NCBI GenBank assembly: GCA_019561615.1
Contig: JAHEQA010000026.1
Span: 1-42,729 of the forward strand
DNA length: 42,729 bases
Reading direction: 5' to 3'
DNA from: Methanothermococcus sp. SCGC AD-155-E23
GTDB taxonomy: Archaea; AGJL01; Methanococci; Methanococcales; Methanococcaceae
Shown here piece after piece: positions 8,294 to 13,269 of this stretch. Under the pieces are notes generated by a model. The model had not been told where the DNA came from. It searched no databases and saw only the letters and a program-made list of their open reading frames with translations. A program made the translations under genes and the position numbers. Each line of letters starts with the position of its first letter. Positions within the stretch are counted from its first letter, which is position 1.

Positions 8294-8536
8294 ATGAAGT
8301 ATAAGTTAATATTCTTGTTGATGTTGACTTCCTCTGTAATATTTTTCTCTGTCTTAGTTGGGGATGTGGAACTCTTCTTTATCTTACTCCTTATAACCTA
8401 CCTACTACTGTACTCACTATTAGGTCCATACTTCAATAGGAGGATTAAAAGTAACCTAGATATAGCACTCTACCTAGGTATTGGGGTATTTACAGTCATA
8501 GTCTTTCAAAAGGTATTGGAGATACTTAGTCGTTAA
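8294..8536 (+). CDS. Small membrane protein of unknown function
   Basis: The 80-residue protein has three predicted membrane segments (about residues 3-22, 26-46 and 58-77) separated by a short basic loop, GPYFNRRIK. It starts 9 bp after its neighbour, with GTGGGGTT before the ATG, and ends overlapping the oppositely oriented 8526-9110 gene by 11 bp. I recognise no family. Its reality rests on tight operon spacing, a ribosome binding site and coherent membrane topology. Confidence 0.6.
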   Translation: MKYKLIFLLMLTSSVIFFSVLVGDVELFFILLLITYLLLYSLLGPYFNRRIKSNLDIALYLGIGVFTVIVFQKVLEILSR

Positions 8537-9110
8537 TCTTACTAAATCTGTAGAGTAGTAGGTAGAGACCTGTGAAACCTAGAAGTATGGAGATCTGGGA
8601 TCTTGGATAGGAGAGTATATCTGGAAAACATATGGAAAGGATATATACTAAAATTATTGGAATTAGAACACCTAGGAAGATTTTTACTACGGTGTCTACC
8701 TTAGGTATGTTATCCTTAAAGTTTAGATAGATGGCGTAAATTAAAAGTAGGGTGTAGGTCAAGATTAGAGGGATCTCACCCCCTATATTCAAGATAGTAA
8801 GTATTAGAGGGGTTGAGAATATCCCAAGTAATTTAAGATCTAAGTTAAAGTCCCTCTTTAACAGGGCATCCAGGTAGAGAACTGCAGGGAGTATAACAAA
8901 TAACGTTGTATATATTATATCTAGGGAGAATAGGTCCTCAACCAATAGTAAGTTGGATAGCCATAGAAGGGTTATCAAATATACCATAAATCCCCAAAAT
9001 TTCTTAAGATAGGCCAGTATCAAAGACACTATTATACCAAGGAGTATATAGTGCTTGTAGGGAATGTCAAGAAAGATTATACCCTCTAGGAGTAGTAGCA
9101 ACCTGTACAT
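8526..9110 (-). CDS. Multi-pass membrane protein downstream of DUF58
   Basis: The 194-residue protein is almost entirely hydrophobic, with about six predicted membrane helices and few charged loops. It is the last gene of the DUF4350-MoxR-DUF58 set and its start overlaps the DUF58 gene by 25 bp, so the two are probably made together. In other MoxR/DUF58 clusters this position is often held by transglutaminase-like or DUF4129 membrane proteins, but no such catalytic motif is visible here. Its function is unknown. Confidence 0.65.
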   Translation of the reverse strand: MYRLLLLLEGIIFLDIPYKHYILLGIIVSLILAYLKKFWGFMVYLITLLWLSNLLLVEDLFSLDIIYTTLFVILPAVLYLDALLKRDFNLDLKLLGIFSTPLILTILNIGGEIPLILTYTLLLIYAIYLNFKDNIPKVDTVVKIFLGVLIPIILVYILSICFPDILSYPRSQISILLGFTGLYLLLYRFSKIND

Positions 9111-10351
9111 GGTTTTACCATTAAGTCTTTAATACTATCCCTGTAGGATACATCTATTACGGTGGCTCCCCTTCTTTTTAGCTCCTTAATAATCTTCCTC
9201 CTATTCTCGTAGTGTTTATAGAGCCTCAGTAGTATGTCCTCCTCTAATAGATCCTCTTCATCTAGATTAAAAGAGGGTGTATAGAGGGCATAGATTATTA
9301 CCTTAAATCCCTTTCTAGTCAGAATATTTACACTTTTAAAAAGAGGTACTATATTTGACTCCAGGTCTGTGATTATTATTACAGTTCCAGCCTTCATTCT
9401 ACTTAGAAGTTTTGCACACTGAAGGATACCAGGACTTTTAGAGAGGGGGAAGTTATTATTACATCTTTTTTCACAGATACCCCTTACATTTGGAATATAT
9501 CTCTTTATCTGAAATACTTCTATCTCCCTGAGATCCTCTAAAATTCTCTTCTTAACATTTCTATCTGAATACACCTTTAGGATCCGATAGTCGTCGTAGA
9601 GGATAATATTCAGATCCCCTTTACTTCCCTCCACAATACTCAAGAGTAGCGATAGGGCGTAGTCCAACTTACTTCTATCCCTCTTTGCAAACCTCCTCAT
9701 ACTACTTCCCACATCTAGTAACAGATAGACACTTTTCTCCTCTAGATGAATAAGTTTTCTAACAATTAATTTACCTACTTTGAAAGACCTCTTCCAATCT
9801 ATCCTCCTGGGATCGTCTCCAACTTCATAGAATTTCAACCCCCATATTTCTGGATCGGGAACACTAGATAGGAGGGACATCTGGCTTCTCTTCTCTATAC
9901 TGTATTTTAAACCTTCAAGGGAGGGTTCCACCTGTAGTTTAAAGGATGCAGAGTAATCTGTGCTAAATAACCCCCTTACATCGTGTAACCTACCCTTTAC
10001 CTCTAGTGTAAACTCCCCCTTTTTAAAGGGGATTACATTTATTACATATTTCCATACCTTCCCCTTTAATACCCTGTAGGAGAGTACCCCATGAGGTGAG
10101 GAAAAATCAAGAACAGGTACTGTATCCTTCCCATGAACTTTAAATACTATCCTGGAACATTGGCGCTCCTTTAAGGTACTCCTCTCTAACTCCCCTTCTA
10201 TTTTTAAATTGGAGGTACTCTCAATGAGATAGAGGTATAGAAAAATAGAGATGCCCAAAAATGTACTAAGGAGGTTGTTAAGTATATACCCACAGGTGAG
10301 ACAGAGTATGCCAAATCTTAAAAGTGTTCTGGAGTATTCCGTTGTATCCAT
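9086..10351 (-). CDS. DUF58 domain protein (MoxR-associated, vWA-like)
   Basis: The 421-residue protein has an N-terminal membrane hairpin (about residues 12-43), a beta-rich middle region, then the DUF58 signature YEVGDDPRRIDWKRS (175-189). A von Willebrand A-like domain follows, with the metal site motif DVGSSM (213-218). DUF58 proteins are encoded next to MoxR AAA+ ATPases, and the pair is thought to act as a chaperone that inserts metals or assembles complexes at the membrane. The ATG follows AAAGGAGATTCTC, 17 bp after the MoxR gene. The client of this pair is unknown; the neighbouring DUF4350, DUF1616 and pilin genes are candidates. Confidence 0.85.
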   Translation of the reverse strand: MDTTEYSRTLLRFGILCLTCGYILNNLLSTFLGISIFLYLYLIESTSNLKIEGELERSTLKERQCSRIVFKVHGKDTVPVLDFSSPHGVLSYRVLKGKVWKYVINVIPFKKGEFTLEVKGRLHDVRGLFSTDYSASFKLQVEPSLEGLKYSIEKRSQMSLLSSVPDPEIWGLKFYEVGDDPRRIDWKRSFKVGKLIVRKLIHLEEKSVYLLLDVGSSMRRFAKRDRSKLDYALSLLLSIVEGSKGDLNIILYDDYRILKVYSDRNVKKRILEDLREIEVFQIKRYIPNVRGICEKRCNNNFPLSKSPGILQCAKLLSRMKAGTVIIITDLESNIVPLFKSVNILTRKGFKVIIYALYTPSFNLDEEDLLEEDILLRLYKHYENRRKIIKELKRRGATVIDVSYRDSIKDLMVKPCTGCYYS

Positions 10352-10368
10352 GAGAATCTCCTTTAAAA

Positions 10369-11298
10369 TCAGTCGTACCTAAAGTCCCCTTTTGGCACCT
10401 CTACCCTATCCAGTATATCCCTTAGAACACTCTCTACAGGCTCTTCCACCTCGTAGTCTAATACAATCCTATGACTTAAAACCTTCAGTACATTATCTTT
10501 AACATCGTCGGGGATTACATACCTCCTACCTTCCAGGTAGGCGTTACCCTTTGCTATCTTAAGTAACTGTACTCCAGCCCTTGTACTTGCACCTAGTACC
10601 ACCCTCTTATCTCTCCTGGTATGCACTACAATATCCCTGATATACTTCAATATAGCCCTGGATACGTGGATACTGTCCACCTCTTTAAAAACCTCCTCCA
10701 TGGTATTTCTATCTAGGATGGTGTTTATCTCCTCCCTCTCCTCCTCATTATTCTTTAGTGTCAATACCTTCAACTCCTCCTCCTCACTTAAGTAATGGAT
10801 CTTAGATTTTATCATGAATCTGTCCAACTGGGCTGTGGGTAGTGGATATACCCCTTCAAATTCCACAGGATTCTGGGTTGCAATAACCATGAAAGGTGTA
10901 GGTAGTGAATAGGTCTTCCCCCCAACTGATACACTGTTCTCCTCCATAGCCTCTACCAGTGCAGACTGGGTCTTTGGAGACATCCTGTTTATCTCATCTA
11001 CTAGGAGGATATTGGAGAAGATAGGTCCTGGAATGTATTTAAAATCCCCCAGGTTTATGTCGTATATCTCACCACCTACTATATCAGAGGGGATGAGATC
11101 TGGAGTACCCTGTATCCTGGAAAAATTCAATCCTATACACTGGGAGAATGTCCTGGCTAATGTGGTCTTGGCGAGCCCTGGAACACCCTCCAGTAGGATA
11201 TGCCCCCTGCAGATAAAGGATAGAAATAGATCTCTTATTACGTCGTCTAATCCTATAACTCTTTTTCCTACTTCCTCCCTTAATCTTTCGAAGATCAT
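10369..11298 (-). CDS. MoxR-family AAA+ ATPase
   Basis: The 309-residue ATPase has Walker A GVPGLAKT (residues 38-45), Walker B ILLVDEINR (97-105) and the MoxR hallmark ATQNPVEFEGVYPLPTAQ, then a sensor-2 domain with GASTRAGVQLL. Length is normal. MoxR proteins act as chaperone-like ATPases with vWA partners; here the DUF58 protein just downstream is the obvious partner. Its ATG overlaps the stop of the DUF4350 gene in an ATGA arrangement, showing translational coupling. The family call is firm, but the target is not known. Confidence 0.93.
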   Translation of the reverse strand: MIFERLREEVGKRVIGLDDVIRDLFLSFICRGHILLEGVPGLAKTTLARTFSQCIGLNFSRIQGTPDLIPSDIVGGEIYDINLGDFKYIPGPIFSNILLVDEINRMSPKTQSALVEAMEENSVSVGGKTYSLPTPFMVIATQNPVEFEGVYPLPTAQLDRFMIKSKIHYLSEEEELKVLTLKNNEEEREEINTILDRNTMEEVFKEVDSIHVSRAILKYIRDIVVHTRRDKRVVLGASTRAGVQLLKIAKGNAYLEGRRYVIPDDVKDNVLKVLSHRIVLDYEVEEPVESVLRDILDRVEVPKGDFRYD

Positions 11299-12269
11299 AG
11301 TATCCTATTTACAATCTTGTAAAGGGTAGATATATCAAGGTGATACTTTTTACTAACATCTTCCAGGATTTTTCTGAGAGATAACTCCTCTTTATATTTA
11401 AAATTATTTGCAACAAGTTTCTCTATTGGATATCTAAGTAGTCTAAGTATCTTATTGGCTATTACTGTAGCTATCAGTATGCCTGTAAAGAGGTAACTTA
11501 ATAATTCAGGTGTAACGTTGTTACTTCGAACAGCCACTGTTACAATATTTTGAGGGTTCACGTCAAGGTGGTGATACTCGTCGAAATATATGGCACTTTT
11601 TTCTGAGTAGTTGAAGTAACTCTTTAAAAAATCCCTGTTGTAGTTGAAGAATTCATTTTTAAATATTGCTGGGTCGGAGATCAGTATTACTTTACCACTA
11701 CCGTAATCCTTCTCCACTATAAGTGGATAGGAGGACTCCTCCCCTGGTTCAGGGTATTTGCCAATTCTACTAGATCTACTGGAGTATACTAAAACTGTAC
11801 CCTTATCTTTACCTATGATTGCAGAGGGGTTTTCCATTAGGACATAGTCATAGGCATAGAGTTCCACAGGCCTCGTTATATCGTAGAGTGGATCTTTAGA
11901 GAATCTGAAAGAGATATTTAAGTGTTTTAAGATGTGGTTGCCCTCCTTGGAGTTATCTGCAAGGATTAATATATTTCCCGAGGATATGTATCTCTTCAGG
12001 TTTTTTACTTCTTCTTCTGTAAATCCCACATCTGGAGAGATGATAAATAGAACGGAATTTTCTTTTAGATCCTCTCTACTGTAGGGATATATTAAAGGTC
12101 TTGTATTGTTGTTCATCCTGTACATTAATTTAAAGAAGTTGGAACATCCCTCTTTTTCTCTGTTGAATACACTGTAAGGTTGGGTGGTTTTAATAGTGGG
12201 AATTACTAGGGGCATGGCTATAAACCCTAGCATTAGAAGGACTAGTAAAATAAAGTGTTCTGTTCTCAT
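11295..12269 (-). CDS. DUF4350 domain membrane protein
   Basis: The 324-residue protein has an N-terminal membrane segment (about residues 6-24). An extracytoplasmic DUF4350 domain follows, with the readable features SVLFIISPDVGFTEEE, YISSGNILILAD and GSGKVILISDPAIFKNEF, and then YFDEYHHL. A second membrane segment lies near residue 250 before a cytoplasmic tail. DUF4350 proteins commonly accompany MoxR and DUF58. This is the first gene of the set; GGTGTTTCCCA precedes its ATG. It is divergent from the winged-helix regulator at 12399, so the two promoters share the spacer. Confidence 0.8.
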   Translation of the reverse strand: MRTEHFILLVLLMLGFIAMPLVIPTIKTTQPYSVFNREKEGCSNFFKLMYRMNNNTRPLIYPYSREDLKENSVLFIISPDVGFTEEEVKNLKRYISSGNILILADNSKEGNHILKHLNISFRFSKDPLYDITRPVELYAYDYVLMENPSAIIGKDKGTVLVYSSRSSRIGKYPEPGEESSYPLIVEKDYGSGKVILISDPAIFKNEFFNYNRDFLKSYFNYSEKSAIYFDEYHHLDVNPQNIVTVAVRSNNVTPELLSYLFTGILIATVIANKILRLLRYPIEKLVANNFKYKEELSLRKILEDVSKKYHLDISTLYKIVNRIL

Positions 12270-12398
12270 TGGGAAACACCGGAGGTTAAGTATTTTAGTT
12301 AAGAGTTATTATTATTGGGATGGAATGTTAAGGGAATTGCTCCTATTTAATCTTGGAGATGGTATTAATTTTTGATGGACATTAAAAGTGAGGTATGT
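12270..12398. promoter_or_regulatory. Divergent spacer between DUF4350 and the winged-helix regulator
   Basis: This A/T-rich spacer separates two start sites that point away from each other. I see TAATAATAATA-type stretches that could form a TATA element for the minus-strand operon and TTTAATC/ATTAATT sequences for the plus strand, but no convincing consensus box. The palindrome found at 12685-12710 does not recur here. Confidence 0.35.
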
Positions 12399-12680
12399 AT
12401 GGACAACATATTTAACTCCGAGGTCAGGGTAAAGGTGTTGGCTCTGTTATACGGGGTGAAGTACTGTGAATTCAACTATCTCTTGAAAAAACTGGGAACC
12501 TCCCCTGGAAATCTCTGGACCCATTTAAAGAGACTTGAAAAAGAGGGTTATGTTGAGGTGAAGAAGTATCCCCTGAAGAAAGGGGTGAGAACTATAGTCA
12601 AGATTACAGAGAAAGGTGCTGAGAAGTTTAGAGAGTATCTAAATGAGTTGTTAAAACTCTCAGGTGGAGAGGTTTCATAA
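12399..12680 (+). CDS. Winged-helix transcriptional regulator
   Basis: The 93-residue protein is a single winged-helix DNA-binding domain: SEVRVKVLALLY helix, CEFNYLLKKLGTSPGNLWTHLKRLEKEGYVEV helix-turn-helix, and a KGVRTIVKITEKG wing, followed by a short dimerisation-type helix. It resembles the HTH_34/MarR-like group of small archaeal regulators. I start at ATG 12399 because GTGAGG lies just upstream; in-frame TTG 12372 and ATG 12375 are possible. The gene ends 5 bp before a palindromic operator that overlaps the promoter of the first pilin-like gene, so it probably controls that gene. No ligand domain is present. Confidence 0.85.
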   Translation: MDNIFNSEVRVKVLALLYGVKYCEFNYLLKKLGTSPGNLWTHLKRLEKEGYVEVKKYPLKKGVRTIVKITEKGAEKFREYLNELLKLSGGEVS

Positions 12681-12684
12681 TAAT

Positions 12685-12710
12685 ACTTTGTATTACAAAG
12701 TAATTGTAAT
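12685..12710. promoter_or_regulatory. Overlapping palindromic operator
   Basis: Two perfect inverted repeats overlap here. ACTTTG-TATTA-CAAAGT occupies 12685-12701, and ATTACAA-AGTAA-TTGTAAT occupies 12692-12710. They end 1 bp before the TATA box of the pilin-like gene, covering the BRE position where a bound repressor would block TFB. The winged-helix gene just upstream is the natural candidate to bind it. The palindromes are seen directly; the regulator link is inferred. Confidence 0.75.
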
Positions 12711-12711
12711 A

Positions 12712-12719
12712 TTTATATA
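12712..12719 (+). promoter_or_regulatory. TATA box for the class III pilin-like gene
   Basis: TTTATATA matches the archaeal TATA consensus. It lies 66 bp before the ATG at 12778, predicting a transcript start near 12743 and a leader of about 35 nt. The leader ends with GGAGGTGA at 12764-12771, an almost complete match to the 16S rRNA tail and the strongest ribosome binding site in this region, as expected for an abundant structural protein. Confidence 0.75.
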
Positions 12720-12777
12720 CTAAAGTTAAGGTAGTATAATAATGCCCAGGAAATAAGTGATAAGGAGGTGAGTAGTT

Positions 12778-13005
12778 ATGCTAATGGAGAAGTTAATGTC
12801 CAAGAGAGGACAGGTCTCCATGGAGATAGGTATTCTAGTTGCAGCTGCTATTGCAGTTGCTGCAATTGCTGCATACTTCTATGTTGTAAATATTCAACAG
12901 AGTGCTTCTAGGGCAGGAAATGCTTCAAATGCTACAATCCAAGAATTGCAAGGTGTAGCAATAGATTATGCTCAGAGAATGAGGAATTTAACAAATTCAA
13001 CATAA
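12778..13005 (+). CDS. Class III signal peptide (type IV pilin-like) protein 1
   Basis: The 75-residue protein is a typical small Methanococcales type IV pilin-like subunit. The class III signal is KRG followed by QVSMEIGIL (Q12-x-S14-x-E16-x3-L20), and cleavage by the EppA-type prepilin peptidase is expected between G11 and Q12. The hydrophobic alanine-rich helix (about residues 17-38) follows, then a short polar domain with Asn-x-Ser/Thr sites (NAS, NAT, NLT). That leaves a mature protein of 64 residues. It has its own strong promoter and ribosome binding site and is followed by T-runs. It is adjacent to a paralogue that shares a 29-nt identical block. Confidence 0.88.
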   Translation: MLMEKLMSKRGQVSMEIGILVAAAIAVAAIAAYFYVVNIQQSASRAGNASNATIQELQGVAIDYAQRMRNLTNST

Positions 13006-13009
13006 AAAA

Positions 13010-13038
13010 TTTTTCTATCTATTTTTTACTATTTTTTT
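13010..13038 (+). terminator. Oligo-T terminator after pilin-like gene 1
   Basis: Three T-runs of 5, 6 and 7 bases (13010-13014, 13022-13027, 13032-13038) follow the stop codon within 35 bp. Archaeal RNA polymerase terminates at such oligo-T stretches without a hairpin. Partial termination here would lower expression of the second pilin-like gene relative to the first. Confidence 0.6.
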
Positions 13039-13050
13039 ATCGGTGTATGT

Positions 13051-13269
13051 ATGTCATTAATAATTAAGTTACTCTCCAAAAGAGGACAGGTCTCCATGGA
13101 GATAGGTATCTTAATTATTGCAACGATCACTGTGTCCACCATTGCTATCTACTATTATATAAACAACTATATAAACCTCAACTCCAATGCCCCACAAAAA
13201 GCAGTAAATGAAACCATTAACTCATTAAGTAATGTGTCTAAAAAATACAGTAATTTAATGAAACAATAA
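13051..13269 (+). CDS. Class III signal peptide (type IV pilin-like) protein 2
   Basis: The 72-residue protein repeats the architecture of its neighbour: KRG followed by QVSMEIGIL with predicted cleavage between G12 and Q13, then an isoleucine-rich hydrophobic helix and a short asparagine-rich C-terminal domain with NET and NVS sites. The helix and tail have diverged from pilin 1 while the processing region is nearly identical at DNA level. GGTGTATGT precedes the ATG. It may be a minor pilin or an adaptor of the same filament. It is convergent with the DHH phosphoesterase gene. Confidence 0.82.
   Translation: MSLIIKLLSKRGQVSMEIGILIIATITVSTIAIYYYINNYINLNSNAPQKAVNETINSLSNVSKKYSNLMKQ

Follow-up and report, generated by a model that had tools for sequence, protein, structure and literature searches.

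Does the small DNA-binding protein encoded immediately before two class III pilin genes in a methanogen control those genes, and through which DNA site? The locus lies in a 42,729-nucleotide stretch of Methanothermococcus sp. SCGC AD-155-E23 (contig JAHEQA010000026.1, labelled C26 in our set), which is called the window throughout. Its source genome measures 1.04 Mb and is 86% complete. The locus was compared with those of 36 Methanococcales genomes, the same 36 being obtained with a phylum-level query as with one for the order. Some of these genomes are incomplete, so that part of the apparent absences reported below may be gaps.

Regulator, pilins and palindrome in the window

The regulator gene runs on the forward strand from an ATG at 12399, a start supported by its homologs, to a stop codon ending at 12680, and is preceded by a Shine-Dalgarno-like GTGAGGT at 12388-12394 on the same strand. 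Its product, which a preliminary description of this DNA had already singled out as a DNA-binding protein of 93 residues, matched the Pfam family HTH_34 (PF13601) with 65.6 bits (cut-off 27) over residues 18-95 of the reading from a TTG start. The AF2 model consisted of a confident single wHTH domain (pLDDT 92) with no additional domain, in keeping with the winged-helix fold proposed earlier. The best PDB match of this model was PH1061 of Pyrococcus horikoshii (1UB9; query TM-score 0.88, 30% identity), which is likewise a single-domain wHTH protein and was also the nearest solved relative by sequence (E 9.6e-12). The fold of the regulator is PH1061-like, and its C-terminal helix probably serves in dimerisation. 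No function or operator of PH1061 was found in the open literature searched. As a separate observation, Cys23 (12465-12470) was invariant in 14 of 14 aligned homologs, which may reflect a redox or metal role.

The two class III pilin genes of the preliminary description were confirmed on the forward strand at 12778-13005 (pilin 1, 75 aa) and 13051-13269 (pilin 2, 72 aa). Both products scored above the PF04021 cut-off of 23.7 bits (34.9 and 34.6), which places them in the same family as the EpdE/MMP1685-kind class III signal peptide pilins of Methanococcales. The QxSxE motif of the class III signal peptide reads QVSME in both, and both aligned with homologs from across the whole order. Against TIGR04205 (class III, archaeosortase D/PIP-CTERM associated), they scored 33.9 and 19 bits, below the cut-off of 65. 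Pilin 1 has a strong Shine-Dalgarno sequence, AAGGAGGTGA, at 12762-12771, and its promoter contains the TATA octamer TTTATATA at 12712-12719, with a presumed TFB recognition element (BRE) at 12705-12711 placed by its position relative to the TATA box (all on the forward strand). Pilin 2 is without a palindrome of its own.

Between the regulator and pilin 1 stands a perfect 17-bp palindrome, ACTTTGTATTACAAAGT, at 12685-12701, which starts 4 nt past the regulator stop codon and is the predicted operator (ACTTTGTA-T-TACAAAGT). Palindromes taken from the window alone are weak evidence in AT-rich DNA. Inverted repeats with arms of at least 8 nt and loops of at most 6 nt numbered 11 in the window and 2-11 in ten shuffles, and at least one such repeat occurred in 3% of shuffles of the 97-nt gap. 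The doubt that the palindrome arose by chance is removed by its conservation in relatives. Across regulator-bearing genomes, the site upstream of the pilin TATA box had the form ACTYTGTANTRCAAAGT, and the consensus of 14 sites was itself a perfect palindrome, with column symmetry above that of position-shuffled controls (P = 0.001). Of 15 aligned sites, 14 had the palindrome end 10 nt from the TATA box, and the site of G033 had it 9 nt away; these distances depend on TATA boxes assigned by eye, here as in the window. The conserved palindrome covers neither the BRE nor the TATA box.

Co-occurrence of regulator, site and membrane gene

Homologs of the regulator were found in 17 of the 36 genomes, in both Methanococcaceae and Methanocaldococcaceae, with identities of 48-86% in the first family-wide search, and pilin genes came after the regulator in most of these genomes. 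The palindrome together with the TATA element, at no more than one mismatch, was present in 12 of the 17 regulator-bearing genomes, versus none of the 19 without the regulator. As this full-element pattern had been written partly from loci to which it was then matched, we used a separate PWM trained on Methanococcaceae sites alone and applied it in each genome to the 250 bp preceding the best pilin. Scores were at least 14 in 13 of the 15 regulator-bearing genomes having a pilin, and at most 6.1 in all 18 genomes without an intact regulator. Since the Methanococcaceae-trained PWM recovered the sites of Methanocaldococcaceae, those sites provide independent confirmation. The association of regulator and site gave a Fisher p of 1.8e-7, a value uncorrected for phylogeny. 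A loose 15-mer, CTYTRYRNTRYAAAG, was also tried as an operator detector and was discarded, as it gave many extra genome-wide matches, nearly all within conserved coding sequence.

On a tree built from the cdhE protein alone, the regulator changed state about eight times and the site about seven times. Among six independent contrasts, the site followed the regulator in four to six and moved in the opposite direction in none (sign test p 0.03-0.125). Neither regulator nor site was found in the Methanococcus (genus g2) genomes. In two genomes (G024 and G030), the regulator is not beside a pilin and a clear canonical site is missing, and a third (G013) has kept the regulator and the membrane gene described below, such a pilin being absent. 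The preliminary description had named missing conservation beside pilin genes in relatives as the result that would speak against it; we found regulator and site conserved beside pilins in two families. The comparison shows that the regulator has evolved in step with the site and that the site is part of the pilin promoter. We regard the coupling of regulator and operator, taken alone, as highly probable. With the class III pilins they form a unit, kept or lost jointly in both families.

In most relatives, a gene for a membrane protein of 170-185 aa lies directly upstream of the regulator. Its counterpart in this genome is on a separate contig (G000:C17:25878-26399), so the switch is not the self-contained one proposed from the window: co-occurrence, and the operon structure seen in relatives, make the membrane gene a part of it. 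The gene was found in 18 genomes, 16 of which carry the regulator or its remnant. G012, which has neither a regulator nor a close pilin match, retains it alone at the old locus, and in G032 it is located at a contig end; G029 has no membrane gene, and its regulator is cut by a contig end. On C17 the membrane gene adjoins a cofE-like gene, the one that in G013 and G017 borders the whole cluster. The position beside the cofE-like gene on C17 indicates that linkage broke between the membrane gene and the regulator, and the retention of the gene suggests that it may still work with the regulator in trans. A Pfam search of the membrane protein returned nothing above threshold, and its AF2 model was all-helical with moderate confidence (pLDDT 75). 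This protein family offers a candidate sensor.

Direction of control and competing readings

We infer binding, dimerisation, the sign of control and the signal input as follows. In the pilin promoter, a dimer of the wHTH protein would bind the 17-bp palindrome immediately upstream of the BRE. The all-helical membrane protein, the product of a separate gene, would probably relay a signal from the membrane or the surface to the regulator. The bound regulator would most likely aid loading of TFB/TBP and thus activate pilin transcription. Sites that activate transcription from immediately upstream of the BRE are known from EarA of M. maripaludis (PMC5512572). The EarA-like position of the palindrome and its nearly fixed spacing are the reasons for which we favour activation, modestly, over repression, as the near-constant distance between palindrome and TATA box suggests contact with basal factors. 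To the full mechanism, in which a dedicated regulator-operator pair activates the major class III pilin or pilins and the membrane partner is included, we would give an even chance. More tentatively, the locus may represent an undescribed surface-sensing circuit, in which a membrane protein acts through a soluble wHTH protein on a palindrome one helical turn upstream of the TATA box, turning the major pilin on; such a circuit would spread and be lost as a module and drive unlinked pilin copies in trans.

The same regulator-operator pair could instead work by repression, the regulator preventing TFB/TBP loading until a signal from the membrane protein relieves it. We consider this a serious alternative, although one that probably does not hold. 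Small single-domain wHTH proteins of the HTH_34, MarR, PadR or ArsR-like kinds are frequently repressors, and the fold neighbours of the regulator model include many. The site lies near the BRE, whose edge a dimer footprint could touch, and loss of regulator and site from a repressed promoter that otherwise stays in place would be harmless. However, the repression first suggested for this locus was a block of TFB/TBP, and the conserved site stops 10 nt short of the TATA box and leaves both BRE and TATA free, at a spacing to the TATA box that is nearly invariant, as expected for contact with basal factors. Nor is there conservation of the second, overlapping palindrome, which would extend to the TATA box.

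Whichever its sign, control by this regulator presupposes that the palindrome is its site. The palindrome might be the site of another factor or a part of the basal pilin promoter, with the wHTH gene as a linked passenger, but this is improbable. Regulator and site are close together in many genomes, where one deletion could remove both (G010 versus G016). In Methanocaldococcaceae, however, another pilin gene stands between regulator and site, and in G020 there is one regulator gene for four pilin copies; every copy has the palindrome, and three of the four are on contigs without a regulator match. The layout in Methanocaldococcaceae and the copies of G020 therefore rule out that the palindrome terminates the regulator gene, and they favour action in trans.

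Decay of the palindrome within retained promoter DNA also argues against the passenger reading. In four genomes without an intact regulator (G014, G015, G031 and G022), the BRE-TATA tail matched that of regulator-bearing relatives at 15-19 of 19 positions, and the palindrome matched at 6-10 of 17, compared with 12-15 of 17 between pairs of regulator-bearing genomes. G014, G015 and G031 thus keep the adjoining promoter DNA beside a decayed palindrome, which is not the result of a single deletion. The gene order of G015 is that of the window (DUF4350, MoxR, DUF58, two pilins, DHH, cdhD, cdhE) minus the regulator and the palindrome. In G022, both the regulator and the adjacent membrane gene are truncated, and the BRE-TATA of the pilin has stayed intact. 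The damaged operator of this genome (at about G022:C1 1320900-1322400) borders on an insertion sequence whose terminal repeats are ACTGTCAAGTTA/TAACTTGACAGT.

The preliminary description rested on two overlapping perfect palindromes, which it read as two binding registers or cooperative dimers. Both repeats are present in the window, the second being ATTACAA-N5-TTGTAAT at 12692-12710, and two inverted repeats with arms of at least 7 nt occurred in 1.2% of shuffles of the 97-nt gap. The arms of the second repeat are perfect over 7 nt, but its 5-nt spacer is non-palindromic, and only the first register is conserved. At every other orthologous locus, the second register paired at just 1-4 of 7 positions. 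Its sequence had no match in the loci retrieved from other genomes, so that the search pattern ATTACAA-N5-TTGTAAT found this genome's loci only. The second repeat is probably incidental as judged from these alignments, and two binding registers or a cooperative double site are very unlikely. Without conservation of the second repeat, the argument for an operator covering the TATA box falls.

Two further readings, that the palindrome is a chance inverted repeat in AT-rich DNA or terminates the regulator transcript, might draw on the shuffled counts and on the closeness to the regulator stop codon. Both were rejected as extremely unlikely on position and conservation: the site is kept in two families, its distance from the pilin TATA box hardly varies, and in Methanocaldococcaceae and G020 it is found away from the regulator 3' end.

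Relation to known regulators and further observations

EarA, like the predicted regulator of the window, is a small Methanococcales DNA-binding regulator of a type IV pilus-kind appendage with sites upstream of the BRE. The two differ in family (PF07381 for EarA, PF13601 here) and in target, which is the archaellum operon for EarA and class III pilins here. They also differ in site, as EarA boxes are 6 bp long with the consensus TACATA (PMC10665913), in contrast to the 17-bp palindrome. The window regulator gave no PF07381 match at E <= 1, no PF07381 protein was found in this incomplete genome, and TACATA does not occur in 12640-12712. EarA was rejected as an identity for the regulator on the lack of a PF07381 match and of TACATA boxes.

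Membrane-linked HTH control of archaellum and pilus promoters has been described for ArnR/ArnR1 of Sulfolobus acidocaldarius (PMC6396743). ArnR combines the HTH with transmembrane segments in one chain, whereas here the wHTH protein is soluble and the membrane protein is encoded by a separate gene. The ArnR family is PF13463 (PMC4858521) rather than PF13601, and the ancestry looks different. A one-component regulator of the ArnR type was rejected, as the 93-aa protein was modelled wholly as one wHTH domain and the membrane protein is separately encoded. Nothing useful on MJ0430-MJ0432 was found in the open literature searched. That literature, in which few subscription papers were covered, also contained no report of a regulator for the class III pilins of Methanococcales, in agreement with the preliminary description.

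Outside Sulfolobus, to our knowledge, little is known about how type IV pili of archaea are controlled. Many uncharacterised regulators near such loci were noted in a census covering archaeal type IV pili, according to which pilus regulation is little understood (PMC4858521). The co-inheritance and co-loss of the regulator, the 17-letter site and the pilin genes in deep-sea methanogens point to an undescribed system for the control of surface fibres. They provide a candidate regulator-operator pair, open to testing, for the main pilin in several deep-branching methanogens, some of them cultivated species of the Methanocaldococcus type, and the repeated joint losses may serve as natural experiments in how promoters lose their regulator.

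Several minor features were observed around the pilin genes. A second copy of the palindrome and TATA element is present after pilin 1 in G017 and G018, about 120 bp upstream of the pilin 2 promoter, and is perhaps a relic of pilin duplication. Different perfect palindromes were seen upstream of the pilin in two genomes where the canonical site is absent, AGTTTGTTATACAAACT in G030 and TATTTTATGTAAAATA in G015; these variants possibly reflect altered specificity or chance. A gene for a multi-membrane protein of about 610 aa follows the pilins in G017, G016, G010 and G009 and is absent from that position in the window. Finally, a cluster of DUF4350, MoxR, DUF58 and membrane protein genes at 8526-12269 is divergent to the pilins and has been kept in place in G015; vWA/MoxR genes were noted near pilus loci in the archaeal pilus census (PMC4858521).
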